A DNA stretch of 64,000 nucleotides from an uncultured Spirochaetaceae bacterium (lineage in GTDB: Bacteria > Spirochaetota > Spirochaetia > Sphaerochaetales > Sphaerochaetaceae), in NCBI GenBank assembly GCA_944389145.1, contig CALXLH010000010.1, forward strand, positions 1-64,000. Direction: 5' to 3'. The position numbers and the translations under genes were made by a program. Below the pieces are notes generated by a model, which was given only the letters and a program-made list of their open reading frames with translations, was not told the DNA's origin and did not search any database. Shown here one piece after another: positions 5,171 through 19,655 of this stretch. Position 1 is the stretch's first letter. Each line of letters opens with the position of its first letter.

Positions 5171-6184
5171 TTATTCTCTTTGCTTCTTATCTTCCAGAAG
5201 CGATATCAGGGAAGCTCCGGACCTCGCATATGCATTGATTTTCTGTAAGACGAGCTCATCCTCCAGAGAATAGCGACGTGGAACATTGTTTGCATCATTT
5301 ACCATCGCAGCTTCTTCAAGCCGGTTCCTGTATTCTCCTGGAGTCATGCCAAAGAATTTTCGAAACGCAGCATGAAGGGCCTTGGCATCCCCGAATCCAG
5401 AATCAATAGCAATGTCGGAAACTATGTCATCTGTAGTATTGAGCTTATATGCTGCGTATGCCGTCCTCTTCTTTGTCAGATAGTCATAGAACCCTATACC
5501 AACATGTGTCTTGAAGAATGTAGAGGCGTATGAAGGGTTCATGTTCAGGAGAGAGGCTATATCTGACAGAGAGATCCTTTCTCTGAATCTGCGGTTTACC
5601 ATCTTCATCATCGCATCAAGCATCTTGCTCTGCTTTCTTGTAAGGACTGTGGTTTTAGGGCTAAGTACTCCGTTAGAGCATTTTGAAAGCAAGACAGAAC
5701 AGAGGGAGAATATCTCTGCGAAGCATATCATTTTTGATGGATATTGCTCTGTGGCTAGTGAATAATAGAGTGTTGCGACGGAGGAACGGACGTAATCAGC
5801 TATCATATCTGTTTTGCCATCCATTGCATATAAGTCGAAATAAGGCAGAGAGACATTGCCTAGCAGCTTTTCAAGAAACTCTTTTGATATGTGAAGCACA
5901 AGCGTGACCGTGCCTTGTTCCTTAAGCATGCTGGCATGTCCTATGTTTGGATTAATGATAAGTACCCCATCTTCTTCCAGATCGAACATCCCACGTTCTG
6001 TACAGGTTTTCAGCCGTCCTCGCAATACGATCATGATTTCTAGTGATGAATGCCAGTTGAAGCGGAAGAAGTTATTTTCATATGCGTATGATTCCAGAAT
6101 AATCTTTCCGTTCTCGTCATAGAATGCCACGCACTTCTCGTCAATTTGGAATGGGCCTAGATCGAAGTTTCCCGATGTAATCAT
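5171..6184 (-). CDS. AraC family transcriptional regulator
   Basis: The 337-residue protein has an N-terminal cupin-like sensor part (FRFNWHSSLEIMIVLRG near residues 41-57) and a C-terminal pair of helix-turn-helix motifs ending in the AraC signature FRKFFGMTPGEYRNRL (about residues 275-290). It is divergent from the dehydratase/TRAP operon across an AT-rich 198-bp gap, so it probably activates that operon in response to a sugar acid. No Shine-Dalgarno precedes the ATG. A TATAAT at 6197-6192 would place transcription start about 1-2 nt before the start codon, suggesting a leaderless mRNA. Confidence 0.9.
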   Translation of the reverse strand: MITSGNFDLGPFQIDEKCVAFYDENGKIILESYAYENNFFRFNWHSSLEIMIVLRGRLKTCTERGMFDLEEDGVLIINPNIGHASMLKEQGTVTLVLHISKEFLEKLLGNVSLPYFDLYAMDGKTDMIADYVRSSVATLYYSLATEQYPSKMICFAEIFSLCSVLLSKCSNGVLSPKTTVLTRKQSKMLDAMMKMVNRRFRERISLSDIASLLNMNPSYASTFFKTHVGIGFYDYLTKKRTAYAAYKLNTTDDIVSDIAIDSGFGDAKALHAAFRKFFGMTPGEYRNRLEEAAMVNDANNVPRRYSLEDELVLQKINAYARSGASLISLLEDKKQRE

Positions 6185-6191
6185 ATTGCAT

Positions 6192-6382
6192 ATTATATCC
6201 TAAATTTTTTGGATTCAAAATTTATGAATTAAAAAAAATTTTTCCAGAAAAATAATTAGTTTTATTTAAAGAAATTATATATAAAATATTTATTTTGTTT
6301 TTGTAATTTAAATCCAAAGATGTGGAATTGTGGTTTTTTAGTTTGAGACAAATAATCTAAATAACATTAAGGAGGAGAGCTG
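6192..6382. promoter_or_regulatory. Divergent AT-rich promoter region (araC-type gene / dehydratase operon)
   Basis: On the minus strand TATAAT (6197-6192) lies 7 nt from the regulator's ATG. On the plus strand AATAAT (6351-6356) with a poor -35 (TTGTGG, 6328-6333, 17-bp spacing) could serve the dehydratase, whose Shine-Dalgarno AAGGAGG is at about 6368-6374. TTTGGATT (6208-6215) and its inverse AATCCAAA (6311-6318) flank the region and may be regulator half-sites. The base composition is sharply more AT-rich than the coding DNA. Confidence 0.5.
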
Positions 6383-7576
6383 ATGAAAATTACCGATGTA
6401 ACTACATTGTCAGCAAACAGATTCCTTTTCGTTAAGGTCGAGACTGATGAAGGAATCACGGGAATCGGAGAAAGTGGTACTTGGGCCTTTCAGGATGCGG
6501 CGAGGGAAGCTGTCAATTCCTTTAAGGAATATCTGATTGGCAAGAATCCACTTCAGATTGAGCACCATTGGCAATATATGTACCGAAGCTATCACTTCCG
6601 AGGAGCTGCGATCATGGGAGCTATATCTGCAATCGATATTGCCTTATGGGATATAGCCGGAAAATACTTTGGATGCCCTGTTTATCAGCTCCTTGGAGGG
6701 AAGGTCCGAAACAAGGCCCGCGTATATTACCATGTCGGCGGTGGCGAGATCGATACGATGGTAAAGAACCTGAAGGAGGCGAAGGCTAAAGGCTTTACGG
6801 CAGTAGGTCATCTTTCTCCGTTCCTTGATGAACCCAGGACCGAGCCATTTAGGGATATGATCTTTGCAAAGAAGATAAATGAAGCTGTCGAAAGAGTTGC
6901 TGCATACAGGGAAGCTGTCGGAAATGATGTCGATCTCTGCATTGAGATACACAGGCGCCTGAATATTCCTGAGGCTATCGCATTTGCCCGAGGAATTGAG
7001 GAGTACACTCCGTATTTCCTTGAGGATCCCACGAAGCCTGATAACTTTGACAACATGGAATTCATCGCGCATAAGGTGAATATACCTATTGCGACAGGTG
7101 AGAGATATCACACGCCTGAGGAGTTTGCCATGCTGATCAAGCATGATGGGGCGCAGTATGTCAGGACTGATATATGCCTTTGTGGAGGTATAACCGGAGG
7201 AAAGAAGATCGCATCCATGGCTGAAGCCAACGGTATCATGGTCGTCCCACATAATCCTCTGAGCCCCGTGTCGACAGCCGCCTGCATACAGATCGCTGCC
7301 TGTTCTCCTAATTTCGCCCTTCAGGAGTATCCTGGTGATGATCGTCCCAGCACGACGGACCGTTATATTTCCCATGAATTCAATAAGAGCCAGAACTCGT
7401 TCTGTCAGGGGGATGTGGTCAAGGAAACGATCAAGTGTGAGAACGGATATCTGATCATACCGGACAAGCCGGGCATCGGAGTAGAGCTTGTAGATGATGT
7501 CGATAAGAAGTTCCCGTATAAGAGGCGTCAGATTGTCACTAGGCTGGCAGAAGATGGATCAGTGATTGATCAGTAA
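6383..7576 (+). CDS. Enolase-superfamily sugar-acid dehydratase (DgoD/ManD-like)
   Basis: The 397-residue protein resembles galactonate/mannonate dehydratases of the mandelate-racemase group, which remove water from sugar acids to give 2-keto-3-deoxy acids. Metal ligands can be placed at E188, E214 (in EDP) and E240 (in TGER), with H190 and H290 as likely acid/base residues. CLCGGIT (265-271) and PHNPLSPVSTAA (289-300) are strongly family-like. The first ligand is Glu, not the Asp of classical DgoD, which is seen in a subgroup of less defined specificity. A strong AAGGAGG precedes the start. It is the first gene of an operon with a TRAP transporter, so the imported compound is presumably its substrate. 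Confidence 0.85.
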   Translation: MKITDVTTLSANRFLFVKVETDEGITGIGESGTWAFQDAAREAVNSFKEYLIGKNPLQIEHHWQYMYRSYHFRGAAIMGAISAIDIALWDIAGKYFGCPVYQLLGGKVRNKARVYYHVGGGEIDTMVKNLKEAKAKGFTAVGHLSPFLDEPRTEPFRDMIFAKKINEAVERVAAYREAVGNDVDLCIEIHRRLNIPEAIAFARGIEEYTPYFLEDPTKPDNFDNMEFIAHKVNIPIATGERYHTPEEFAMLIKHDGAQYVRTDICLCGGITGGKKIASMAEANGIMVVPHNPLSPVSTAACIQIAACSPNFALQEYPGDDRPSTTDRYISHEFNKSQNSFCQGDVVKETIKCENGYLIIPDKPGIGVELVDDVDKKFPYKRRQIVTRLAEDGSVIDQ

Positions 7577-7587
7577 GCGAGGAAAAA

Positions 7588-8622
7588 ATGAAGAAAAGAA
7601 CCTTATTAGTTGTATTGATGATAATTACGATAGTTCTTCTGGCTGGATGCTCTAAGGATGATTCATCATCAAGCGGATCAGCCTCACAGACAGCGGCCGC
7701 CGCTTCGGACGAAAGGAACTATACGCTTAAATTCCAGCATCTGGGCGTTGAAGGCGATGCCTATGATCTGGGAGCCAAGCGCTTCAAGGAGCTTGCGGAG
7801 GAATATTCTGGCGGATCATTGACAATCGAGCTTTACTCGAATGGAGAGCTTGCCTCGGGCGCTAATGCTGTGCAGAGCGTGCAGATGGGTACCTTGGATA
7901 TCGTGGCGGAGTCTTCAATGACCGAGGCGAACTTCATCCCTTCATTCGACGTGCTTAACCTGCCTTTCCTCTTTGATAACCTTGATCAGGTATGGACTGT
8001 GCTAGATGGTCAGGTAGGGGAGGAATTGAAGGCTGATGCAGAGGCTTCTGGATTCAAGGTTCTTTGTTTCTGGGATAACGGATTCAGGAATGTCTCAAAT
8101 AACACAAGGGCGATAAACTCTGTTGATGATGTTGCCGGCCTGAAGATAAGGGTTCCGGAGAACGGTGTTTTCGTTGACACTTGGGAGGCGCTTGGAGCCA
8201 TTCCGACACCTATGGCTTGGAGTGAGGTATATTCTGCCCTTCAGCTTGGAACGATTGATGGACAGGAAAACCCGAATGGCCATATGCAGAGTTATAACCT
8301 TACCGAGATCCAGAAGTATTTCGCTATCACCAATCATGTATATACTGCCGAGCCTGTAATCATGAACCTAAGCGTCTTCAATAAGCTGTCTGATAACCAG
8401 AAGGAAGCTCTGATGAAAGCTGCGGCAGAATCTGCGACATATGAAAGGGAGCAGAGGAGGATGATCAACGATGAGACCCTTCAGTGGATAAGTGATCAGG
8501 GCGTTGAGATCACATACCCAGATATAGAGAGTTTCCGTGATAAGGTGGCTCCGATCTATGAGGAGTATGGAGCTAAGTATAGCAACCTGCTCTCTGAGAT
8601 ACAGGAAGTCACTGGAAAATAG
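7588..8622 (+). CDS. dctP: TRAP transporter substrate-binding lipoprotein DctP
   Basis: The 344-residue protein has a true lipobox (LLAGC, Cys21) after a hydrophobic signal sequence and a Ser-rich linker, so it should be membrane-anchored. The DctP fold is marked by GLKIRVPENGVF and QLGTIDGQENP, regions that bind the carboxylate of sugar acids. It starts 11 nt after the dehydratase, and its mRNA ends in a long palindrome before dctQ. It is the only binding protein in this window with a lipobox cysteine. Confidence 0.93.
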   Translation: MKKRTLLVVLMIITIVLLAGCSKDDSSSSGSASQTAAAASDERNYTLKFQHLGVEGDAYDLGAKRFKELAEEYSGGSLTIELYSNGELASGANAVQSVQMGTLDIVAESSMTEANFIPSFDVLNLPFLFDNLDQVWTVLDGQVGEELKADAEASGFKVLCFWDNGFRNVSNNTRAINSVDDVAGLKIRVPENGVFVDTWEALGAIPTPMAWSEVYSALQLGTIDGQENPNGHMQSYNLTEIQKYFAITNHVYTAEPVIMNLSVFNKLSDNQKEALMKAAAESATYEREQRRMINDETLQWISDQGVEITYPDIESFRDKVAPIYEEYGAKYSNLLSEIQEVTGK

Positions 8623-8628
8623 ATGCTC

Positions 8629-8650
8629 TAAGGCGGCAATTGCCGCCTTA
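8629..8650 (+). terminator. 22-bp perfect palindrome between dctP and dctQ
   Basis: A perfect palindrome centred at 8639/8640 forms a GC-rich stem of about ten pairs whose last bases run into the Shine-Dalgarno AAGGAGG (8650-8656) of dctQ. There is a TTTT just after the Shine-Dalgarno. It may act as partial terminator, 3' stabiliser of dctP mRNA, or brake on dctQ translation. Confidence 0.65.
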
Positions 8651-8661
8651 AGGAGGTTTTG

Positions 8662-9141
8662 ATGGATTTTATCGATAAGATATGGAAATACATTGACAAG
8701 GGCATGGAGTATCTGATGGCCGTTTGCTTTGGTGGAATGACAATCGTCATCTTCCTTCAGGTAATTTTCAGGTATTGCCTTAGAAGTCCTCTTTCATGGT
8801 CAGAGGAGCTGGCGAGATATCTTTTTGTATATATCTCGTTCATCGGTAGCGTAATTGCGGCTCGTGGCGGGCAGCATATAGGCGTAGAGGTTCTTGTGAA
8901 GCGGCTTCCGAAAGGACTGGAAAAGATAGTTACCGCAATAGCAAACCTGCTTACTGGAATATTCTTCGTTATCATAACCGTTGCTTTTGTCCGCATGTTC
9001 CCGATGCTGACAAGACAGACTACATCGGCACTGGGAATCTCGATGGCCATACCGTATCTCGGCCTTGGGCTAGGAGCCATACTCATGGCGGTATTCTATA
9101 TCATCGAGGCAATTCGACCTTTTGTAGTAAAGAGGAGTTAG
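8662..9141 (+). CDS. dctQ: TRAP transporter small permease DctQ
   Basis: The 159-residue protein has four hydrophobic stretches and the DctQ motif region SPLSWSEELARYLFVY. ATG 8662 is chosen over the TTG at 8659 because AAGGAGG (8650-8656) then has a 5-nt spacer. It lies between dctP and dctM and forms the small membrane subunit of the sodium-dependent TRAP importer. Confidence 0.93.
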   Translation: MDFIDKIWKYIDKGMEYLMAVCFGGMTIVIFLQVIFRYCLRSPLSWSEELARYLFVYISFIGSVIAARGGQHIGVEVLVKRLPKGLEKIVTAIANLLTGIFFVIITVAFVRMFPMLTRQTTSALGISMAIPYLGLGLGAILMAVFYIIEAIRPFVVKRS

Positions 9142-9142
9142 T

Positions 9143-10417
9143 ATGGGAACGATCCTTTTCGTGATTTTCTTCATATGCTTATTCATAAACGTGCCAATAG
9201 CAGTATGCCTTGGAATTGCATCGGTGGCAGCCTTGATCTTTGGAGGGATATCCCTTATTGCCGTTCCTCAGGCAATGTTTACTGCGGTGAATTCGTTTTC
9301 ACTCATGGCTATACCGTTCTTTGTGCTTGCCGGTAATGTCATGGCTACCGGAGGAATCTCTAGGCGCCTGGTGAATTTCGCAAATCTCATCATTGGTGGA
9401 ATAAGAGGCGGCCTTGCCATAGCTTCTATCCTTGCTTCCATGATCTTCGCCGCGATCTCTGGTTCCTGTCCAGCGACGACGGCCGCGATCGGAAGCATCA
9501 TGGTTCCGGAGATGAAGAAGAATGGCTACAGCAATGATTTCGCTGCTGCAACGGTTGCTGCTGCGGGAACCGTTGGCCAGGTTATCCCTCCTAGCGTTCC
9601 AATGGTGTCGTATTGCGTTCTTGCCGGATGTTCTGTCGGTAAGCTTTTCCTTGCTGGTGTTGGCCCCGGGATCCTCATGGGATTGGTGATGATGGCAATC
9701 GCCTACAGATACGCGGTGAAGAATGGCATAGTCGCAAAGAAGGAAAAGAAATCCCTTAAGGAAGTGATGGCTGTATTCATTGATAGTATCTGGGCGATCC
9801 TGATGCCTGTTATAATCCTTGGGGGAATATATTCTGGTATCTTTACTCCGACTGAATCAGCAGCAGTTGCAGTCGTGTATGGAGTCATTGTGGGGAAATT
9901 CGTATACAAGGATCTGCACATGAAGGATCTTGTCTCGATATTCGCGAAGTCGGCTGCAGGTACTGCGGTAATCATGCTTATCATGGCAACCGCTGGCTCA
10001 TTCAGCTGGGTTCTTACGAGCGAGAGAATACCTCAGCTTATCGCAAACACCCTATTGTCATTGACGACGAATAAGATAGTCCTTCTTTTCCTGTTCAATA
10101 TAGTCCTTCTGATTGCGGGGTGTTTCCTAAATCCGTCAGCAGCAGTCATATTGTTGACTCCGATACTCCTTCCTGTGCTTACGCAGGTTGGCGTAAGTCC
10201 CTATCTAGTCGGAATCGTAATGATCGTCAACCTTGCCGTCGGGCAGATAACTCCTCCTGTAGGTGCCTGCCTATATGTCGCTTGCAATATCGCAAACGTG
10301 AAGCTGGAACCTCTTGTAAAGGCGATAATTGGATATATGATCGCTCTGATTGTTGTTATATTCGCAATAACTTATATAGAGCCTATTTCCTTGGCGCTTC
10401 CTGCGTTATTCGGTTGA
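9143..10417 (+). CDS. dctM: TRAP transporter large permease DctM
   Basis: The 424-residue protein has about 12 hydrophobic segments and the DctM signatures PFFVLAGNVMATGGI and SGSCPATTAAIGSIMVPEM. It starts 1 nt after dctQ. Being the translocating subunit of the TRAP system, it would carry the sugar acid that the dehydratase encoded first in the operon acts on. A hairpin terminator follows 6 nt after the stop. Confidence 0.94.
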   Translation: MGTILFVIFFICLFINVPIAVCLGIASVAALIFGGISLIAVPQAMFTAVNSFSLMAIPFFVLAGNVMATGGISRRLVNFANLIIGGIRGGLAIASILASMIFAAISGSCPATTAAIGSIMVPEMKKNGYSNDFAAATVAAAGTVGQVIPPSVPMVSYCVLAGCSVGKLFLAGVGPGILMGLVMMAIAYRYAVKNGIVAKKEKKSLKEVMAVFIDSIWAILMPVIILGGIYSGIFTPTESAAVAVVYGVIVGKFVYKDLHMKDLVSIFAKSAAGTAVIMLIMATAGSFSWVLTSERIPQLIANTLLSLTTNKIVLLFLFNIVLLIAGCFLNPSAAVILLTPILLPVLTQVGVSPYLVGIVMIVNLAVGQITPPVGACLYVACNIANVKLEPLVKAIIGYMIALIVVIFAITYIEPISLALPALFG

Positions 10418-10423
10418 ATATCT

Positions 10424-10451
10424 AGCCTGTCGCTATCAAGCGGCAGGCTTT
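10424..10451 (+). terminator. Terminator of dehydratase/TRAP operon
   Basis: AGCCTGTCGC (10424-10433) pairs with GCGGCAGGCT (10440-10449) around a 6-nt loop with one G-U pair. A short T run follows. Confidence 0.7.
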
Positions 10452-10524
10452 GCATGATTGCATTTCTTGCCTCTTATTCTCCATCATCGCCTCATATGCT
10501 ATCCTTCACCAGAGTAGATAAGCC

Positions 10525-10992
10525 ATGGGTGATGAGAGCTTCTACAAGGATCTATACGATAGATTCGAGAGGGGAGAGTTCCTCCCGTCGGATGATAAGG
10601 ACTTCCATGATCTTGCCGCTGCTATAAGCCGCTTCGTACCGGAGGAGAAGCTCGTGGAGAACTGGGATGGCTATGTGCCGTTCCTTATCGATGGATCGAT
10701 GGCTGATACGGCTCTCTCCACGCTGGAGAAGGCAGGGCCTAAGGAGGATTACTTCCTCTGGGATTATCTTTACTCGATGGCGCTTTACAGGAGCGCGGTG
10801 ATAGAGAACCGTTCGGATGATGTCGAGTACGATCCATCCTGCGGCGACATTCTCGGAACGCTGAGGAAGGCCCGTTCCTATGCCTCCAAGGCGAGGAGCC
10901 TTGCCCCGGAGCGCTTCCTTCCTGATCTTGACCGTCTTGACGCCGTCACATCCAGGGCGCTTATCGTCGCCCGCATGAAGGGGTTGAGATGA
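10525..10992 (+). CDS. Hypothetical protein, acidic alpha-helical
   Basis: This 155-residue protein is not recognised. It has no signal peptide or membrane segment, is rich in Asp, Glu, Leu and Arg, and looks all-helical. A segment near residues 115-140 (LRKARSYASKARSLAPERF) resembles a TPR-like helix pair, but a full repeat cannot be defined. It ends inside the next gene as GAGATGA, so it is probably co-translated with the rRNA methyltransferase and may have a related ribosome role. No clear Shine-Dalgarno precedes ATG 10525. Confidence 0.7.
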   Translation: MGDESFYKDLYDRFERGEFLPSDDKDFHDLAAAISRFVPEEKLVENWDGYVPFLIDGSMADTALSTLEKAGPKEDYFLWDYLYSMALYRSAVIENRSDDVEYDPSCGDILGTLRKARSYASKARSLAPERFLPDLDRLDAVTSRALIVARMKGLR

Positions 10993-12140
10993 GAAGGCAT
11001 TGCAATCTCTCCGGCCGCTGCGGCGGCTGTACCTTCGTCAACATACCATATGCCGATGAGCTGCTCGATAAGCGTGTTGCCGAGGAAAGGCAGCTCTCTC
11101 GCTTCTGCAGCGTCGCCCCGATACTCAGAAGCGACAGGATAACAGGATACAGGTGCAAGGTGCAGGCAGTCTGCGGTACCGAGGACGGACGTCTTGTCAC
11201 AGGCATATACCGCCGTGGTTCCCATAAGCTCATACCCGTGCGTTCCTGTCCGCTGGAGGATGAGAGGGCAGGGAGGATCCTGGAGACTATACGCTCGCTC
11301 TCGAATCGCTACGGGATAACTGCCTATGATGAGGATATGGGCTATGGCGAGCTGCGCCATGTCCTAATCAGGGTGGCCGCGCATGCCGATGAGGCGCTTG
11401 TCGTCCTGGTGACGGCAGTGGACAGCCTTTCTCATGAATCGGATCTTGCCGCTGCGATCCATCAGAAGCATCCCTTCGTCAAGGGTGTCGTTGCCGTGAA
11501 GAACAGGGAACGCACGAGCATGGTGCTGCCCGAGGATCCGGCTGTGAGGATCATCTATGGCAGGGGGTATATCACGGACAGGCTCTGTGGCCTGAGGTTC
11601 AGGATATCGCCGGCATCGTTCTATCAGGTGAATCCATACATGGCCGAAAGGCTCTATAAGATCGCGATGAACATGGCCATGCTGCGCCCCGATGATACCG
11701 TTATCGATGCCTATTCGGGAACCGGTACGATTGCCTGCATAGCGGCCTCTTGCGGAGCGGGCCGCGTCATCGGCATAGAGTCAAATCCGGCGGCAGTGCA
11801 CGATGCTGAGGAGAATGCGGGGATGAACGGGCTTGGAAATGTCTCATTCATCAATGCCGATGCATCTAAGTACATGAAGGAGGCGGCGAAGAGGGGAGAG
11901 CGGTGCGATGTGCTCTTCCTTGATCCGCCGCGCTCTGGCGCAAGCGAGGAGTTCCTTGCCGCGGCCAGCCGCATGGCCCCGGAAAGGATCGTATATATCT
12001 CATGCAATCCCGATTCATTGCAGCGCGATCTCAGATACGTCCGCCGCTTCATGCCTTATAGGATCGTAGGCATCCAGCCTGTGGACATGTTTCCTGCCTC
12101 CGAGCATATTGAGACGGCCGTGCTTCTTGTAAGACGCTGA
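10989..12140 (+). CDS. RlmD/RumA-like 23S rRNA (uracil-5-)-methyltransferase
   Basis: The 383-residue protein is a SAM-dependent 5-methyluridine methyltransferase. The N-terminus has the C-x5-C-x2-C pattern (C5, C11, C14) of the [4Fe-4S] site in RumA. The catalytic domain shows DAYSGTGTIACIA for SAM binding, FLDPPRSG, and the catalytic cysteine in ISCNP (about C339). There is no N-terminal TRAM domain, so the protein is shorter than E. coli RlmD. Its start overlaps the preceding stop by 4 nt. Whether it modifies one or two 23S positions (RlmD versus RlmCD type) cannot be told here. Confidence 0.88.
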   Translation: MRRHCNLSGRCGGCTFVNIPYADELLDKRVAEERQLSRFCSVAPILRSDRITGYRCKVQAVCGTEDGRLVTGIYRRGSHKLIPVRSCPLEDERAGRILETIRSLSNRYGITAYDEDMGYGELRHVLIRVAAHADEALVVLVTAVDSLSHESDLAAAIHQKHPFVKGVVAVKNRERTSMVLPEDPAVRIIYGRGYITDRLCGLRFRISPASFYQVNPYMAERLYKIAMNMAMLRPDDTVIDAYSGTGTIACIAASCGAGRVIGIESNPAAVHDAEENAGMNGLGNVSFINADASKYMKEAAKRGERCDVLFLDPPRSGASEEFLAAASRMAPERIVYISCNPDSLQRDLRYVRRFMPYRIVGIQPVDMFPASEHIETAVLLVRR

Positions 12141-12169
12141 AGAAAATCAGCGCATCACGCTTTCCATTG

Positions 12170-12178
12170 TGGTATAAT
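12170..12178 (+). promoter_or_regulatory. Extended -10 promoter of cytidylate-kinase-like gene
   Basis: TGG directly precedes a perfect TATAAT (12173-12178), an extended -10 element with no good -35. Predicted transcription starts near 12185, right at the AAAGGAG (12185-12191). Confidence 0.65.
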
Positions 12179-12198
12179 GGCAGGAAAGGAGATAGCCG

Positions 12199-12801
12199 TT
12201 GAATAAGGTCATAACAGTTGGAAGGCAGTTCGGAAGCGGGGGCAGGGAGCTTGGAAGGCGCCTTGCAGATTATCTTCAGATCGCCTATTACGACAAGGAG
12301 ATCGTGGAGGAGATCGCGAAGCGCACGTCGCTCTCGGAGGAGTATATCCATAATGTCGTCGAGCATCATCCGTATCCGCTTCTCCCCATCACGATAGGCC
12401 GCAGCTTCAATCCGATGGGCAATCCTATGTTCCAGATAACCCAGAGCGTCTATGCTGAGCAGACTAACATCATAAAGGAGATGGCGGAAAACTCCGATTG
12501 CGTCATTGTCGGGCGCTGTGCCGATTACATCCTGAGGGATATAAAGCCTTGGAGGCTCTTTGTCTATGCAGACATGGATTCGCGCATCAGGCGCTGCTAT
12601 GCCCGGGCTCCTGAGGGAGAGAATCTCTCTGACAAGGAGATGAGGCAGAAGATCCTCTCCGTGGACAAGGGCCGACAGAAGTACTATGAGTTCTATACCG
12701 GCAACAAATGGGGCGATATGACGAACTACGACTTCTGCATCAATACCTCGAATCTCATCATAAAGGATGCAATACCCCATATAGCGCACCTCTTCGACTG
12801 A
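12199..12801 (+). CDS. Cytidylate kinase-like family protein
   Basis: The 200-residue protein belongs to the cytidylate-kinase-like P-loop family. The P-loop region reads GRQFGSGGRELG (8-19), and a second conserved block is CVIVGRCADYIL. The family is common beside housekeeping genes, but its true substrate is not settled, so it need not be the main CMP kinase. The start codon is TTG 12199, supported by AAAGGAG 7 nt upstream; no in-frame ATG exists before the P-loop. It has its own extended -10 promoter and is followed by a GC-rich hairpin. Confidence 0.85.
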   Translation: MNKVITVGRQFGSGGRELGRRLADYLQIAYYDKEIVEEIAKRTSLSEEYIHNVVEHHPYPLLPITIGRSFNPMGNPMFQITQSVYAEQTNIIKEMAENSDCVIVGRCADYILRDIKPWRLFVYADMDSRIRRCYARAPEGENLSDKEMRQKILSVDKGRQKYYEFYTGNKWGDMTNYDFCINTSNLIIKDAIPHIAHLFD

Positions 12802-12813
12802 GATCGCATGATG

Positions 12814-12842
12814 GCGGGCCCGGGATTATCCCCTCGGCCCGC
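12814..12842 (+). terminator. GC-rich hairpin after cytidylate-kinase-like gene
   Basis: GCGGGCC (12814-12820) pairs with GGCCCGC (12836-12842), with a further GGG/CCC inside. There is no T tract, so termination would be weak or factor-dependent. Confidence 0.45.
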
Positions 12843-12855
12843 ATATCCGAGGGAG

Positions 12856-12885
12856 TTGAATAATCAGCTTGTTCTGGAGTAGAAT
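12856..12885 (+). promoter_or_regulatory. Promoter of rpoZ-miaA
   Basis: TTGAAT (12856-12861) and TAGAAT (12880-12885) are spaced by 18 bp. AAGGAG at 12898-12903 follows, 6 nt before the GTG start. Confidence 0.6.
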
Positions 12886-12909
12886 ACCAATTCTGATAAG
12901 GAGCTTGAT

Positions 12910-13104
12910 GTGATACCTCTCAATGAACTCATCGACAAGGAAACCAACGTTTACGAGATGACCTGCGTGGCTATCAAGGAGGCCGATATCTACGCCCAGA
13001 CCGATAAGGGGGCCGAGATCGAGGCGGCAGGCGAGAAGGTCGTATCCGTCGTCCTTGACCGTGCCCTTAACGACGAGATTGAGTATACCGAGCCGGAAGC
13101 CTAA
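12910..13104 (+). CDS. rpoZ: RNA polymerase omega subunit (short spirochaetal form)
   Basis: The 64-residue protein matches short omega subunits: the N-terminal IPLNELI..NVYEMTCVAIKEA leads into an acidic tail, and omega helps assemble the beta' subunit. The start is GTG 12910, with AAGGAG at 12898-12903; no ATG is in frame. The gene overlaps the start of miaA, a pairing also found in treponemes. The protein lacks the longer C-terminal part of E. coli omega. The assignment rests on short motifs and context. Confidence 0.8.
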   Translation: MIPLNELIDKETNVYEMTCVAIKEADIYAQTDKGAEIEAAGEKVVSVVLDRALNDEIEYTEPEA

Positions 13105-14026
13105 GGCGGTCCTCCTATTTGGACCGACTGCCGTCGGCAAGACGGCCCTGACCGAAAGGCTCTTCTCAAGGGGCTTCGAGATAATCAACGCCGATTCGGT
13201 ACAGGTCTATCGTGGCCTTGATATAGGATCGGCAAAGCCCTCAGAGGCGCTGCAGCATCTCATTCCGCATCATCTGATCGATATCCGTGATCCCTGGGAG
13301 GAGTACTCCGTAGGGGATTTTGTCATGGATGCCGATGCCGCGATAGCTGATATCTCATCGAGGGGACGCATCGCCCTCGTGACCGGCGGCACGGCATATT
13401 ACTTCCGCCACCTTCTCTATGGCGCGCCCAGGACGCCGAAGGCCGATCCGGCGATACGGAAGGAGGTTGAGGAGGAGATGGCGGAGAAAGGCATCAGATG
13501 GGCTCATGCCTATCTTGAGTCTATCGATCCGGTCTCTGCAGGGCGAATAAGCGAGAATGACTCCTACCGCATCTCCAGGGCGATCGAAGTCTATAGGATA
13601 TCTGGCTGTCCGCTCTCATCATTCGCGCTTTCGGAGAAGGAGAGGGATGACGTGGACTTCATCGTCATCGGCCTCGCGAGGGACAGGGCTGAGCTTGATG
13701 AGCGCATCAGGGCCCGCGTTGATATCATGTTCGAGGAAGGCCTCTATGATGAGGTAAGGCGCCTGATGAGGGATGGCGCGAAGGCTTCTTGGCCTGCGAT
13801 GGAAGGCATAGGCTACCGGGAGTTCTTCGATGCCGCGGAATCGGGGGAGCCGACGCTTTCCACCATCCGTGATGACATCATCAGATCATCGATACGCTAT
13901 GCAAAGCGGCAGATGACCTTCTTCTCCTCATTCAGCACCTGCCGCTTCTTCCATCCTGATGACATTGGGTCGATCGCCTCGTACCTGAGGTCAAGGGGCG
14001 TAGATCCCGACCTCCTCGACGCCTAG
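13079..14026 (+). CDS. miaA: tRNA dimethylallyltransferase MiaA
   Basis: MiaA adds an isopentenyl group to A37 of tRNAs that read UNN codons. The P-loop GPTAVGKT lies about 15 residues in, followed by INADSVQVYRGLDIGSAKP and later SYRISRAIEVYRISG, all typical. About 315 residues is the normal length. No ATG is available near the N-terminus; TTG 13079 gives a natural distance to the P-loop, while TTG 13055 and GTG 13061 are longer alternatives. All overlap the 3' end of rpoZ, so the two genes are co-transcribed. The 3' end overlaps the convergent membrane-protein gene by 36 nt. Confidence 0.93.
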   Translation: MSIPSRKPKAVLLFGPTAVGKTALTERLFSRGFEIINADSVQVYRGLDIGSAKPSEALQHLIPHHLIDIRDPWEEYSVGDFVMDADAAIADISSRGRIALVTGGTAYYFRHLLYGAPRTPKADPAIRKEVEEEMAEKGIRWAHAYLESIDPVSAGRISENDSYRISRAIEVYRISGCPLSSFALSEKERDDVDFIVIGLARDRAELDERIRARVDIMFEEGLYDEVRRLMRDGAKASWPAMEGIGYREFFDAAESGEPTLSTIRDDIIRSSIRYAKRQMTFFSSFSTCRFFHPDDIGSIASYLRSRGVDPDLLDA

Positions 14027-15445
14027 GTTCTCGTATCCGAGTATCTCCGAGCCAACGATGTTCCACCATCCACGGTCGTTCCATGCGAATGAGAAGCTCT
14101 GCCTCACGCGGTAGCGATAGACGGGCCTTGTTTCGAGGCTTTCCGTAATCTCTTCCTCTGCATCCTCCTCGTATGGGGCCGGAACGTACCATATTCCGGT
14201 GGCTTCATATTCGTTCTCTCCTGTCTGCTCGATCGATTCAAGCGCGACGCCATAGATGAATGAAGATGCGGGAATCGCAGGACAGCCATCGCTGAGCCAG
14301 TCATTGGCATTGATTATCGGCTCAACCGCCTCATATGCCATCCTCGTGCGTGATGTGACGTAGAGGTTTGTGACCTCCATGCTCTGCGGCAGCTCCGTGC
14401 CCTTTACGGGATCATCGAGAGCCTGCGGATCAAGCTCGTTCTGTGCCTGATAGACCGCCTCGATTATCTCTACAGGCTCCATATCCTTTGTGTATGGGGG
14501 CTCGAGGATTCCCGATATATAGCTTACAAGGAATGAGATGATGGCTACAGCAGCGATCACGGATACCGTTATGACAGTGCCCTTGACTCTCCAGAAAGCC
14601 CTTCTCTTGGCGATCTTGCCCGTCTTTTCGATGATTGCCCTGGCCTCAGCGGCTTCCTCTGCCTTGCGGACATCGGCCTGGCGCTCCTCCTCGCTCCTAT
14701 CCTCGAGGTCCCATTCAAGGCCCTTGCTTCGCTCCAGGAACCACGGCAGCACCTTCTCAGGACTCCTGTTACCCATGATATCCCTCATCTCACGGGACCT
14801 AGCATGGAGTATGAATGATATGAGACCCTCGGTCTTGGCGTCCATGGACTGATAGATCGACAGCGGAAGCTCCTTGTAGCCGGCCTCCCTTGATTCCTCT
14901 CTGATGAAGGGGAGGGTGCCTGCGGCTGCGTAGTACAGCAGCTGTGCCATCTCCGATACAAGCCGGAAGCCTGTCTCGGCGCTGCCCTGCACGAGCGCCG
15001 TGGATTCCATTCTCTTCGTATCCTCGTCGATCATTATTGAGAAGATATCCGCAAGGTCCGGAGGCAGCAGGAGGATATCATGGCCGTCGAGGATGAATAT
15101 CCTGTATAGGGGGAACACTCCGCTGGAGAGGTCAAGGAAGCGGCTCTCTGCCTGCGAAAGGGCGAATGCGAGCCTGTTCACGAGCTTGAGGGCATCCTTC
15201 CTGTGCACGGTCGCGATGGTATCGAAGGGCTCCAGGCTGCATCGCTCGAAGTAGACATAGCGCCATTCGTCGATGGTGGCGAATCCTTCCCAGTACCAGG
15301 GGCGGATGGAAGTGCCATCGGTGATGATTCCCTCCATCTTCTCTCCCTGCATCAGATGCTTAGGAACGCCGAATTCATCGCGCCCGATCCTGATCGCGGT
15401 CCAGGTCCTCCCGTCTCTCTCTATCTCCCTTATCTCTCTTTCCAC
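13991..15445 (-). CDS. Conserved hypothetical protein with one central membrane helix
   Basis: The 484-residue protein is not assigned to a known family. Residues about 1-250 form a soluble domain that begins like a small kinase-like or regulatory fold, followed by a charged, probably coiled stretch (EERQADVRKAEEAAEAR). One transmembrane helix (about residues 287-310, ITVSVIAAVAIISFLVSYI) precedes a C-terminal domain of about 170 residues rich in aromatic residues, which should lie outside the membrane. It starts with GTG just after the MEMO-like gene in the same operon. Its last 36 nt overlap miaA tail to tail. A role in envelope sensing is possible but unproven. Confidence 0.75.
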   Translation of the reverse strand: MEREIREIERDGRTWTAIRIGRDEFGVPKHLMQGEKMEGIITDGTSIRPWYWEGFATIDEWRYVYFERCSLEPFDTIATVHRKDALKLVNRLAFALSQAESRFLDLSSGVFPLYRIFILDGHDILLLPPDLADIFSIMIDEDTKRMESTALVQGSAETGFRLVSEMAQLLYYAAAGTLPFIREESREAGYKELPLSIYQSMDAKTEGLISFILHARSREMRDIMGNRSPEKVLPWFLERSKGLEWDLEDRSEEERQADVRKAEEAAEARAIIEKTGKIAKRRAFWRVKGTVITVSVIAAVAIISFLVSYISGILEPPYTKDMEPVEIIEAVYQAQNELDPQALDDPVKGTELPQSMEVTNLYVTSRTRMAYEAVEPIINANDWLSDGCPAIPASSFIYGVALESIEQTGENEYEATGIWYVPAPYEEDAEEEITESLETRPVYRYRVRQSFSFAWNDRGWWNIVGSEILGYENLGVEEVGIYAP

Positions 15446-16168: not shown

Positions 16169-17553
16169 GACAGCAGCTCCTTGACCCTCTTCTCGTCGAG
16201 TACCACATGGAGATTCCTCTCCTGCGTCGGTATGACAAGCCCGGTCTTGCCGTCCTTCACCCGCCTGAGGTACTTCACCTCGGTGTAGTAGAGGTCGGCC
16301 TTGCCGTTCTTCTTGGCCTTGGAGTAGTGTATTGCAAGAGAGGCGGCATCGAGAAGCACCGGAAGCGGCACCGTCTTGCCTTTCTTCGACCTTATGATCA
16401 CATACGCGCCGCTTGTATCCCTCGTGTGCATCCATATGTCAGAGCCGCGTGTCTCATGGCGGAGGATGGCATCGTTCTCCTTGGCGTTGCGCCCTATGAT
16501 GATATCAAAGCCCTGTATGGTGAGGCGTACGCCCGGCCTGGGATCGTCCTGACGCCTTCTGTCGGAGGTCCGATCCGCCTCCTTCTGCATCCTGTCGCTG
16601 CGACGTTCGGAGAGCAGGGCATCATATTTCGCCTTAGTCTCCTCTATCTCCCTTCTTGTGGTCTCGGCCTCTTCCATGGCCATATCATGGGCCCTCTTGT
16701 CCTTGCGGTAGCGCTCATAGAGCCTCTCCAGGTTCTCGTTAGGGGAGAGCTGGGGCTGCAGCGGTATCGTGATGCGGCCTCCTGTACGCCAGTCGTCTAG
16801 GGTTATCGAGTCCATGCCCTTCCTGATAAGGAAGATGGAGCCTGAGAGGATGTCTGCAGCTTCCTTCTCCTCCTCATAGCCCTCCGTGGCCCTTATCCTC
16901 TCCTCCTGTCTCCTGAGCCTGTCAGAGAGGGCTGCTATCTCCTTGTCCCGCTTCTCCTCAAGCTTCCTGACAAGCTCCTCCGTATGCTCCTCGCGGGCCT
17001 TTGCCGTGCCTTCCCTGTCTATGAACGCATTAAAGGAATCTCCGCTCCACTCGCGTACCGTATAGCTTCTGTCGCCTTCGCTCTTGCGCTCCTCCAGCGC
17101 GAGCTTCTTACCCGCTTCCTCCCCGCGCTGGGGACGGCGGTACATCAGCTCGAGTATGGTCCGGTCCTCATCCGTGATGATGACATTCGCCCCGATTCCT
17201 GAGAACAGGCGCACGATGATGCTTATCCTGTCCTCGCTGTTCTCTGCATCCATGATGAAGGCCCTGTCGAAGGGAAGCTGCCTCACGGCTACGATTTTCC
17301 GTCCTACGAGGTGCGCCCTCATGTACTGCGTGAAGCGCTGGGCGTTCTTCGTCTTCGGTCTCATCGTCTCCGTTCTTACGACGCGCGCATCCGGCGTGGC
17401 GATCTCGAAGTACAGAAGCCAAGCCTTCTCCTCCTTCGAATACATCGACAGCGTGAAGGAGTGGATGGAGTGCTCTGTTACCTTCTGTATATAGCTTCCT
17501 TCCAATGGCAGCTCTGAGAGTATAAGCTCAAGCTCTCTCCAGTTAAGGCTCAT
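16165..17553 (-). CDS. rqcH: NFACT family protein (RqcH/FbpA-like)
   Basis: The 462-residue protein has an NFACT-N domain, a long charged coiled-coil region (about 205-345) and an NFACT-R domain with the block RNAKENDAILRHETRGSDIW and HTRDTSGAYVIIRS. RqcH recognises peptidyl-tRNA on stalled 50S subunits and directs alanine tailing. The Asp-Arg pair needed for this is present at D96-R97. It is shorter than the B. subtilis protein (about 570), mainly in the middle. ATG 17553 has AGGAGG 4-5 nt upstream and is preferred to the upstream ATG 17607. It leads a three-gene leftward operon. Confidence 0.85.
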   Translation of the reverse strand: MSLNWRELELILSELPLEGSYIQKVTEHSIHSFTLSMYSKEEKAWLLYFEIATPDARVVRTETMRPKTKNAQRFTQYMRAHLVGRKIVAVRQLPFDRAFIMDAENSEDRISIIVRLFSGIGANVIITDEDRTILELMYRRPQRGEEAGKKLALEERKSEGDRSYTVREWSGDSFNAFIDREGTAKAREEHTEELVRKLEEKRDKEIAALSDRLRRQEERIRATEGYEEEKEAADILSGSIFLIRKGMDSITLDDWRTGGRITIPLQPQLSPNENLERLYERYRKDKRAHDMAMEEAETTRREIEETKAKYDALLSERRSDRMQKEADRTSDRRRQDDPRPGVRLTIQGFDIIIGRNAKENDAILRHETRGSDIWMHTRDTSGAYVIIRSKKGKTVPLPVLLDAASLAIHYSKAKKNGKADLYYTEVKYLRRVKDGKTGLVIPTQERNLHVVLDEKRVKELLS

Positions 17554-17630
17554 CGTTCCTCCTGCCCTGATGATAACCGAATGCGGTGAGGAAGATAAGG
17601 ACCTCATATGAACAGTAAGACATGGTTGGT

Positions 17631-17659
17631 TTGACTTTCTGCCGATTCATGGCAATAAT
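17631..17659 (+). promoter_or_regulatory. Plus-strand promoter at left end of inverted-repeat locus
   Basis: TTGACT (17631-17636), 17 bp, then AATAAT (17654-17659): five of six matches in each box. Transcription would start near 17666, entering the left inverted-repeat arm and running antisense to the 3' end of the small ORF. Confidence 0.55.
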
Positions 17660-17665
17660 ATAGAT

Positions 17666-17746
17666 GAAGAGTCGCCAGCAAGACGGCGGCCTCAAGTTAA
17701 AGCAGTGCCCCGCTCACCTTTTGGCTTTTGGACGGCGGGGCTGTTT
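17666..17746 (+). ncRNA. Putative antisense RNA to small hydrophobic ORF
   Basis: This is an inferred transcript, not seen directly. It would run from the promoter at 17631-17659 to a GC-rich hairpin (GCCCCGC 17707-17713 with GCGGGGC 17735-17741) followed by TGTTTC. It would be about 80 nt and fully complementary to the end of the small ORF (17714 onward) and to the 3' arm of its mRNA. The layout matches antitoxin RNAs of type I systems such as RatA or SR4. Confidence 0.35.
17707..17741. terminator. GC-rich hairpin overlapping 3' end of small ORF
   Basis: GCCCCGC (17707-17713) and GCGGGGC (17735-17741) form a 7-8 bp stem over a T-rich loop. It contains the stop codon of the leftward small ORF. 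A TGTTTC follows on the plus strand. Confidence 0.5.
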
Positions 17747-17824
17747 CATATCCTGAATCAGGCCGAAGATCTCTCGGAGGATCCTCAGAAGCAGGAGAAC
17801 AAGCTCCAATGCTGATTTGAACAT
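17714..17824 (-). CDS. Small hydrophobic basic-tailed peptide, candidate type I toxin
   Basis: The predicted peptide is 36 residues. It has a short N-terminus, a leucine/isoleucine-rich helix (ALELVLLLLRILREIFGLI) and a strongly basic tail (KQPRRPKAKR). This is the composition of small membrane-active toxins of type I toxin-antitoxin systems, though no named family is recognised. A perfect Shine-Dalgarno AAGGAGG (17839-17833) lies 8 nt before ATG 17824; an in-frame ATG at 17830 is only 2 nt from it. The frame stays open upstream to an ATG at 17899, which has no ribosome site. ACCTCC at 17862-17857 is complementary to the Shine-Dalgarno and could mask it. The gene has its own promoter and lies inside the inverted repeat. 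Confidence 0.6.
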   Translation of the reverse strand: MFKSALELVLLLLRILREIFGLIQDMKQPRRPKAKR

Positions 17825-17914
17825 AACCATCACCTCCTTCTTCCCGCTTGGGATTGGGAGGTATCCTCCCACGGGATGCAGGAGGCCACCGTCTGTCATT
17901 GCTGGCGACAATCC

Positions 17915-17944
17915 ATTATAAATGATATGTATCGTGTTTATTAA
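17915..17944 (-). promoter_or_regulatory. Promoter of small hydrophobic ORF
   Basis: On the minus strand TTAATA (17944-17939), 18 bp, then a perfect TATAAT (17920-17915). The predicted start is G17909 or the next base, which is exactly the first base of the right inverted-repeat arm. Confidence 0.65.
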
Positions 17945-18143
17945 CTGTATCAGATATAGTTTATCATGGATTTACGCCAAGGATGGCGCCTACTGTCATG
18001 CCTATTCCTTGTATATGGCAGAGCATCGCTTCCTATATCTTCAAGATGGTATGTGAGGACTGCCTCATCCTGCCGTATCCCATGAGGATAATCTCTGATG
18101 CGGATATATGAATAGTGTGCTAGGGCAGTATCAAGGAGTGGTT

Positions 18144-19655
18144 ATGAAGCGGCTTATCCTCATTCTGACTTTGATATCAGGGCTATCTGCACTATATGCG
18201 CAGACATCGGGGATATTCGAATATGAGGAATATCATTCTATGGCTATCATTACCTCATGTGATTCGAATGCTGATATCATGACGATACCAGAAGAGATTG
18301 ACTCATTATCCGTGAGCGCAATCAGCGAGGGATTCCTGACTTCCGATCGTGTCAGGGAAGTGCGGATTCCATCATCGGTGGTAGTCATAACCCCAGGAGC
18401 TTTCTCTGCCGCCGATGGCCTTGAGGCCGTGACCGTCCATCCTGATAATCAACGCTACGCCTCTATCAATGGTATTCTCTACGATAAGCGTTCCCGCTCT
18501 CTCATGTGCTATCCACCTGCTAGGGAAGAGGCCTCATTCGAGGTCCCGAAGGGAGTGTGGGAGATAGCGCCATATGCTTTCAGCGATACCGTGAATCTCC
18601 AGAGCGTTGCGCTTCCGGCAAGCGTGAGGTTGATAGGCCAGCAGGCATTCGAGGATTCCTGCATTGCCTCTATCGATTTGCCCGAGGGCCTTCGGATAAT
18701 AGAAGACGAGGCATTCTTCAACTGTAATTCCCTAAGGAGCCTGTCATTGCCTTCGACGCTTATCTTCATAGGCGATGATGCAGTCATCTGCAGCAGTCTT
18801 GAATCGATAAACGTAGCCTCGGGTAATCCTATATATGAAAGTATTGATGGCGTGCTTTTCTTCAGGGGTGCAAGCGAATTGATTGCATATCCGGCGGCAA
18901 GGGAGACCAAGGGCATATATAGGATACCTGCCTCTGTCAGGCATATAGGCGAAGCCGCATTCTGCTATGCAGTGAACCTTGATCGCATACTGCTGACTGA
19001 CGGTATTGAGAGCATCGGATATGGTGCTTTCTGGGGGTCTGGAATCAAGGAGATATCGCTTCCGGATTCAATCTTGGATATCAATCCAGATGCGTTTGCC
19101 AGATGCGACGAACTGCGTATAATCAGGGCGACAGAGGGCAGCTATGCCTATGATATGATTTCCCGTAGCGAGTGGGCGAGGTACCTTGTATATGAGCCTT
19201 CGTGGCTTACCGTCTATCCGTCGTTCCCGACGCTCGATGCTGTATGGGAGGAATATGGTGCTATGCCCGAGGCTACGGAGAATGGCCCATCATATACCCC
19301 TGATGAGCTTCTTGAGGAGCTTGCGGTGTTCGATACGGCTCTCGGAGATTATGAGTATTCCTCTGAGTTCTCCCGGTATGTTGAGTATGAATCCGTATTT
19401 GATCCAGAGAGCTATTACATGATTCCAGATGGTACATTCGGGATAAAGGGAAATGATGAGACGTTTTCCTGCGTACTCTGCGGCCTTGCGCCTGGTAATG
19501 GCAGAAGATACTGGGGTACGATAGATTCGGGGTCAGGCCTCGTGGATATAGCAGTTGCGGATGAAGGCGGAGGCGTGACCCGGATCCTTGCTTATCTTAA
19601 TGAGGATTTCGAGCTTATGTATATGTCCATCAATGGCGGAGAAAGCCTTGTCTAG
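18144..19655 (+). CDS. BspA-like leucine-rich repeat surface protein
   Basis: The 503-residue protein has a cleavable signal peptide ending in ALYAQ and then repeated LRR_5/BspA-type units, for example IPSSVVVITPGAFS, LPASVRLIGQQAFE, LPSTLIFIGDDAV and IPASVRHIGEAAF at about 23-residue intervals up to residue 330. The rest is a non-repeat acidic domain. Such proteins are exported or surface-bound and often act in adhesion. ATG 18144 follows AAGGAG (18133-18138); the upstream ATG 18108 has no ribosome site. The gene ends 4 nt inside folC, tail to tail. Between 17945 and 18143 I see no gene. Confidence 0.85.
   Translation: MKRLILILTLISGLSALYAQTSGIFEYEEYHSMAIITSCDSNADIMTIPEEIDSLSVSAISEGFLTSDRVREVRIPSSVVVITPGAFSAADGLEAVTVHPDNQRYASINGILYDKRSRSLMCYPPAREEASFEVPKGVWEIAPYAFSDTVNLQSVALPASVRLIGQQAFEDSCIASIDLPEGLRIIEDEAFFNCNSLRSLSLPSTLIFIGDDAVICSSLESINVASGNPIYESIDGVLFFRGASELIAYPAARETKGIYRIPASVRHIGEAAFCYAVNLDRILLTDGIESIGYGAFWGSGIKEISLPDSILDINPDAFARCDELRIIRATEGSYAYDMISRSEWARYLVYEPSWLTVYPSFPTLDAVWEEYGAMPEATENGPSYTPDELLEELAVFDTALGDYEYSSEFSRYVEYESVFDPESYYMIPDGTFGIKGNDETFSCVLCGLAPGNGRRYWGTIDSGSGLVDIAVADEGGGVTRILAYLNEDFELMYMSINGGESLV

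Follow-up and report, generated by a model that had tools for sequence, protein, structure and literature searches.

A candidate type I toxin-antitoxin module scattered through gut spirochaetes, with an RNA layout that recurs in clostridia

A unit of about 250 bases lying between folC and rqcH of an uncultured Spirochaetaceae bacterium is very probably a type I toxin-antitoxin module, scattered over chromosomes and associated with mobile elements, that acts by the mechanism proposed below. The first-pass annotation of this DNA had put the type I reading forward as a candidate, and the conservation of the reading frame, the coevolution of the paired arms and the position of the antisense promoter all came out in its favour, leaving this reading well supported at the level of sequence. 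Comparison between copies shows the ORF, the arms, the hairpins and the antisense promoter to be conserved, together with a strand asymmetry of pairing, the spread of the unit and a link to integrases.

Known type I systems come from Proteobacteria, Firmicutes and Tenericutes, to which a paper of 2025 adds Cyanobacteria, ascribing the narrow range to search bias (PMC12390103). If the reading is true, Spirochaetota would gain their first type I system; none of a spirochaete appeared among the titles and abstracts listed, which does not prove priority. The family in gut spirochaetes and clostridia is apparently large and uncatalogued. Being multicopy, seated in another phylum and findable through its RNA chassis, it would offer a search route independent of peptide similarity, as well as a testable case both of toxins being exchanged while the RNA regulator stays fixed and of a toxin tail serving also as antitoxin terminator, and it would tie type I-like units to the tRNA-Val integrative elements of gut spirochaetes.

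Layout of the locus

The genome from which the window (the whole stretch of 64,000 nucleotides that was analysed) derives contains one copy of the module. The promoter, arms, Shine-Dalgarno (SD) sequence, ORF and opposing promoter described earlier from the letters are all present in the sequence (Table 1). That this layout is more than chance is indicated by the promoter-like matches in 900 bp (four, with 1.6 expected, two of the four being exactly the toxin and antisense promoters), by the fold of the minus-strand RNA (-111.5 kcal/mol, z = -6.0, with 0 of 200 shuffles as stable) and, above all, by the conservation of the unit in relatives. The -35 element of the window toxin promoter (TTAATA) is weak, and relatives carry another promoter sequence (TTGAAG...TAAGAT) at the same position; relatives also have a better U-run in the antisense terminator than the window copy, where it is poor (TGTTTCAT). 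The ORF-end hairpin, the TCCCG/CGGGA hairpin and the splitting of a folC-rqcH operon had escaped the earlier annotation.

In related genomes, folC abuts or overlaps the start of rqcH, whereas in the window the module and an opposite-strand BspA-type LRR gene split the pair, suggesting that the module arrived with, or beside, an insertion of ~2.1 kb. Conservation places the start of rqcH at 17553, so that the annotated ORF start, 17607, lies too far upstream. Neither an integrase nor a tRNA adjoins the window module, which points to a separated copy.

Table 1. Elements of the candidate module and its surroundings in the window
Feature	Positions	Strand	Details
Candidate toxin promoter	17915..17944	-	-35 TTAATA 17944-17939, spacer 18 nt, -10 TATAAT 17920-17915
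Predicted toxin mRNA start	near 17909	-	follows TATAAT; the 5' arm forms the first bases
Toxin mRNA 5' arm	17882..17909	-	GTCGCCAGCA, bulge ATGAC, AGACGGTGGCCTC
Pre-SD hairpin	17842..17876	-	outer TCCCG 17876-17872 with CGGGA 17846-17842
Pre-SD hairpin, inner helix		-	GGGAGG 17870-17865 with CCTCCC 17861-17856
Shine-Dalgarno AGGAGG	17833..17838	-	8 nt 5' of ATG
Candidate toxin ORF	17714..17824	-	36 aa, MFKSALELVLLLLRILREIFGLIQDMKQPRRPKAKR; amphipathic helix and basic tail
ORF-end hairpin GCCCCGC / GCGGGGC	17707..17741		halves 17741-17735 with 17713-17707
ORF-end hairpin in plus-strand RNA			predicted antisense RNA terminator; covers the last ORF codons (RRPKAKR)
Toxin mRNA 3' arm	17671..17693	-	GAGGCCGCCGTCTTGCTGGCGAC; partner is the 5' arm
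Candidate antisense (antitoxin) promoter	17631..17659	+	TTGACT-17-AATAAT, directed into the 3' arm
Predicted antisense RNA	17666..17748	+	~83 nt, antisense to the 3' arm and to the 3' end of the ORF; ends predicted
Insertion between folC and rqcH	17554..19652		module and BspA-type LRR gene 18108-19655; boundaries approximate

Conservation of the peptide, the paired arms and the antisense gene

A search of spirochaete genomes with a covariance model, as the first-pass annotation had advised, revealed a recurrent family. The 261-bp unit had a BLASTN match in 20 of 100 related genomes, and the model R1, built from 13 full-length spirochaete copies and giving rough E-values, found 83 places in 40 of the 139 genomes of the window's spirochaete family, spanning four genera and often multicopy or tandem within a genome; the sequences are nearly all metagenome assemblies and the copies are related, so these counts do not represent independent events. 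Among 393 sampled genomes of the phylum, R1 gave nothing credible beyond that family. Near-identical DNA was absent from plasmids and phages, the strict arm pattern was absent from viral contigs, and the Rfam 15 covariance models did not match the module region at gathering score.

The reading frame is intact in 27 copies of subfamily A, with the consensus MKxVLELALVLLRILRExLGLxRDIKxxRRPKAKR. As the earlier proposal of a conserved peptide frame presupposed, pN/pS was 0.44 in the ORF frame against 0.78 and 1.41 in the other two, figures that are descriptive because sequence pairs are not independent, and the 36-aa ORF is judged from them to be under purifying selection. The spirochaete peptides have a mean hydrophobicity of 0.48, a moment of 0.47 and 3.8 charged residues per 18, whereas the clostridial set described below has 0.81, 0.23 and 0.6, respectively; by prediction, the former are of amphipathic type, not transmembrane as in the clostridial set. 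The gene thus has the make-up expected of a type I toxin, namely a short ORF (<60 aa), apparently selected, for a peptide of hydrophobic or membrane-active type with a charged C-terminus. The window peptide and region matched no family in Rfam, Pfam, NCBIfam, PADLOC or PHROGs; the Hol_Tox profile (PF16935) left the window peptide and the spirochaete amphipathic peptides unmatched, and across the genomes of the spirochaete family it gave no hit above cut-off.

The two arms in the window form 23 bp flanking a 5-nt bulge, and their single difference is, as had been noted, a G-U pair in minus-strand RNA. Variation in the arms of subfamily A is mostly one-sided, to G-U pairs, and one copy (L014) has lost one base from each arm. 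In alignment A2, 94.8% of cells pair and 16 pairs are changed on both sides, a number reached by 0 of 500 shuffles, and the covariation is lost once the partners are slid by 1-3 columns; changes on both sides affect 7 of 9 pairs of the pre-SD hairpin and 5 of 7 of the ORF-end hairpin. Correlated change of the arms, which the earlier proposal required, was also found in their outer parts, which lay outside the search pattern: over 109 distinct copies these are predicted to bind their own partner at -11.5 kcal/mol against -6.0 kcal/mol for non-cognate partners (0 of 2000 permutations), and the 5' and 3' arms clearly coevolve across the wider family. Moreover, the arms form a stabler helix in the toxin-sense RNA than in its complement, which holds for 45 of 48 spirochaete copies and for 115 of 117 of the clostridial type. 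A DNA-level inverted repeat would not be expected to show this asymmetry.

The translational side of the earlier model is weaker. A switch had been suggested in which the segment upstream of the SD pairs alternatively with its hairpin partner or with the SD; the hairpin half of this idea agrees with the covariation of the pre-SD stem, whereas the alternative pairing with the SD shows no covariation, the SD region being invariant (core GGNGGTG in A2). Hok-like masking of the SD through 5'-3' pairing gained no support, since the SD is mostly paired in predicted folds both with and without the 3' arm. Its predicted accessibility in subfamily A is low (0.22-0.35) in nascent, truncated and full-length RNA, pointing to local masking rather than masking by the 5'-3' helix, and a translational role of the 5'-3' pairing is therefore not supported by folding. 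A U-rich stretch (CTCTTTCTAT) is conserved directly after the 3' arm in all copies (window 17670-17659, minus strand); the 5'-3' helix might on its own end the toxin mRNA as an intrinsic terminator acting at long range, or the stretch may simply be where the antisense gene starts.

The position of the opposing promoter, TTGACT-17-AATAAT in the window, proved to be conserved as well. A promoter-like pair that matches the consensus at 9 or more of 12 bases lies in the 85 bases past the 3' arm of 43 of 45 spirochaete copies and of 118 of 120 copies of the clostridial type (shuffled mean 7.0). Its -10 box is nearly always 12-24 nt from the arm, the distance in spirochaete copies being mostly 12-20 nt. 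After the ORF-end hairpin the T content is 6.35 per 10 in the antisense direction against 3.9 in the sense direction, and the antisense U-run of clostridial copies is supplied by the successive lysine codons of the toxin tail, suggesting that the toxin tail and the antitoxin terminator share one DNA. The promoter and terminator of the predicted antisense RNA are thus conserved in position.

From these features we infer the transcript ends, the displacement step, the part of RNase III, the toxicity and the addiction role in the following scheme. The minus-strand transcript would begin at the 5' arm and encode the 36-aa amphipathic, membrane-active peptide. During synthesis, the SD would be kept in local structure, and once the 3' end emerges, pairing of the 5' and 3' arms would lock the mRNA in a stable, inert hairpin. 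An RNA of ~83 nt, convergent with it, would start just outside the 3' arm and end on the ORF's own end hairpin; it would be perfectly complementary to the 3' arm, and its 5' segment, which resembles the mRNA 5' arm, would pair without G-U wobbles. It could thereby break up the pairing in cis and give a duplex for RNase III to degrade. Were the short-lived antisense RNA lost, through loss of the element or transcription stress, the stable mRNA would be translated, followed by membrane damage.

Mobile elements and rival explanations

In ten loci the module is preceded on its own strand by a 414-aa tyrosine recombinase (PF00589), intact or decayed, whose end lies 28-34 bp away. A tRNA-Val(GAC) lies beyond the other side of the integrase in L088, L106, L108 and L120 and further off in L087 and L082, and L105 has a 3' tRNA remnant on that side. 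As an observation in its own right, the recombinase and the TA module are part of a tRNA-Val(GAC) integrative element at L088 3518-9413 (also in L087, L106, L108 and L120), which in L088 continues beyond the module with genes for an unknown 308-aa protein, HTH_17, AAA_25 ATPase, Toprim primase and RHH and resembles a satellite or IME. Separately, mobile DNA seems to have inserted repeatedly within the ORF-end hairpin of the module, as if this were a target (L106 about 5625-14289, L107 5001-5301, L103 1-321, L119 1773-2004, L135 41-279); an IS starting TATGCTCCCCTTAAG is found in three of these, an insertion of ~8.4 kb in L106 and other DNA in L135.

The fixed spacing of 28-34 bp from the integrase stop codon would suit a recombination site of the neighbouring tyrosine recombinase, whether an att site, an invertible switch or a folded attC-like site. 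Such a reading has hardly any probability left once it is considered that most copies have no integrase, that on its other side the integrase faces the usual attachment site, a tRNA-Val, that an invertible segment would retain identical arms, and that the conserved ORF and antisense promoter would go unexplained; the inverton and att-site readings were rejected on the strand-asymmetric pairing and the selected ORF. Scarcely more probable is a MITE or other non-autonomous transposable repeat, in which the inverted repeats would be DNA ends and the ORF and promoters incidental. A short, multicopy unit with inverted repeats at both ends and copies at contig ends is what a MITE would look like, but the two promoters are external to the arms, the arms show no homogenisation and have systematic differences in pairs that persist only in toxin-sense RNA, the ORF appears to be under purifying selection, and the internal hairpins covary. 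The MITE reading was rejected, near-identical terminal repeats without a selected ORF not being what the copies present.

The least improbable rival, though still an unlikely one, accepts the gene pair and disputes its purpose: a gene for a small membrane peptide, regulated by an antisense RNA, would serve a non-toxic function, e.g., as a modulator of the envelope, of a phage or of the integrative element. The peptide is of a new sequence type and the integrase linkage would fit such a role, yet the multicopy, patchy and tandem spread and a chassis common to Hol_Tox peptides suit addiction modules better, so the type I toxin-antitoxin reading is preferred.

Clostridial relatives and known type I systems

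Distant spirochaete copies have the arm form GGTAGGCGGTT.../...CCGTCTATCGG, and a scan with the arm-motif pattern returned at least 119 stretches in genome contigs, mostly from Lachnospiraceae, Oscillospiraceae and other Clostridia, plus Spirochaetaceae. The peptides at these loci measure ~21-39 aa and several match Pfam Hol_Tox (best E 2e-7). R1, although trained on spirochaetes, scores many of the clostridial loci (best E 5e-14), scores that are not independent because the pattern that pulled these loci shares motifs with R1; it also found three further copies in two clostridial genomes, absent from the pattern-scan matches, all with the same layout. The features of this chassis, namely paired arms, a pre-SD hairpin, an ORF-end hairpin and an antisense promoter just outside the 3' arm, are those of the spirochaete module. 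Eight pattern-found loci had no match in Rfam 15, and no description of an antisense RNA for the clostridial chassis loci was apparent in the literature searched. Loci L140-L258 form a very large Hol_Tox-like set with strongly coevolving arms and antisense promoter, the tested ones having no Rfam family.

The clostridial Hol_Tox (PF16935) loci, with the chassis GGTAGGCGG ... CCGTCTATCGG, are thus like the spirochaete module in the 5'-3' paired mRNA, the pre-SD hairpin, the ORF-end hairpin as antisense terminator, the short basic-tailed peptide and the distance of the antisense promoter; they differ in that their peptide is a hydrophobic transmembrane helix, that of the spirochaetes being amphipathic. 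In L133/L146, a unit of amphipathic type adjoins a Hol_Tox-like unit (MTDFELLSLVVSIISLVVIVRKK), the 5' arms of the two being nearly identical. It looks as though one RNA chassis carries different toxins, the chassis being conserved and the toxin type varying, a homology of spirochaete and clostridial units based on RNA layout and short motifs. A broader proposal, for and against which the balance is about even, is a cross-phylum type I family with a conserved RNA chassis and an exchangeable toxin, in which spirochaetes would carry amphipathic or, in tandem at the same locus, Hol_Tox-like peptides, the basic tail would be the antitoxin terminator, and G-U wobbles in cis would allow the antitoxin RNA to prevail through its perfect complementarity.

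By the searches and the layout, the module is neither Hok nor AapA nor BsrG, and it belongs to no named family of Rfam, Pfam or NCBIfam. The hok/Sok logic of a stable mRNA with paired ends and a metastable 5' hairpin is common to the module, which differs in having no mok leader peptide and in placing its antisense RNA at the 3' end instead of the leader. The aapA/IsoA systems of H. pylori resemble the module in a 5'-3' long-distance interaction, a cis antisense RNA and multicopy occurrence, and differ in that the long-distance pairing there masks the SD (PMC6733600), for which the folding of the module, a thermodynamic prediction only, gives no support.

Direct homology to bsrG was not found: R1 made no credible match to bsrG (L297), and the window peptide had no match in Pfam. 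The bsrG mRNA shares with the module mRNA a 5'-3' helix (in bsrG of -30 kcal/mol), but bsrG has its own terminator further downstream and its peptide is unrelated. In bsrG/SR4, txpA/RatA and bsrE/SR5 of B. subtilis, a convergent antisense RNA overlaps the 3' end of the toxin mRNA, and this 3'-overlapping type I logic combines a stable, folded toxin mRNA with an unstable convergent antisense RNA, the duplex being cut by RNase III (PMC6562991). The likeness of the module to TxpA and BsrG lies here, its predicted antisense RNA likewise overlapping the 3' end of the toxin mRNA.
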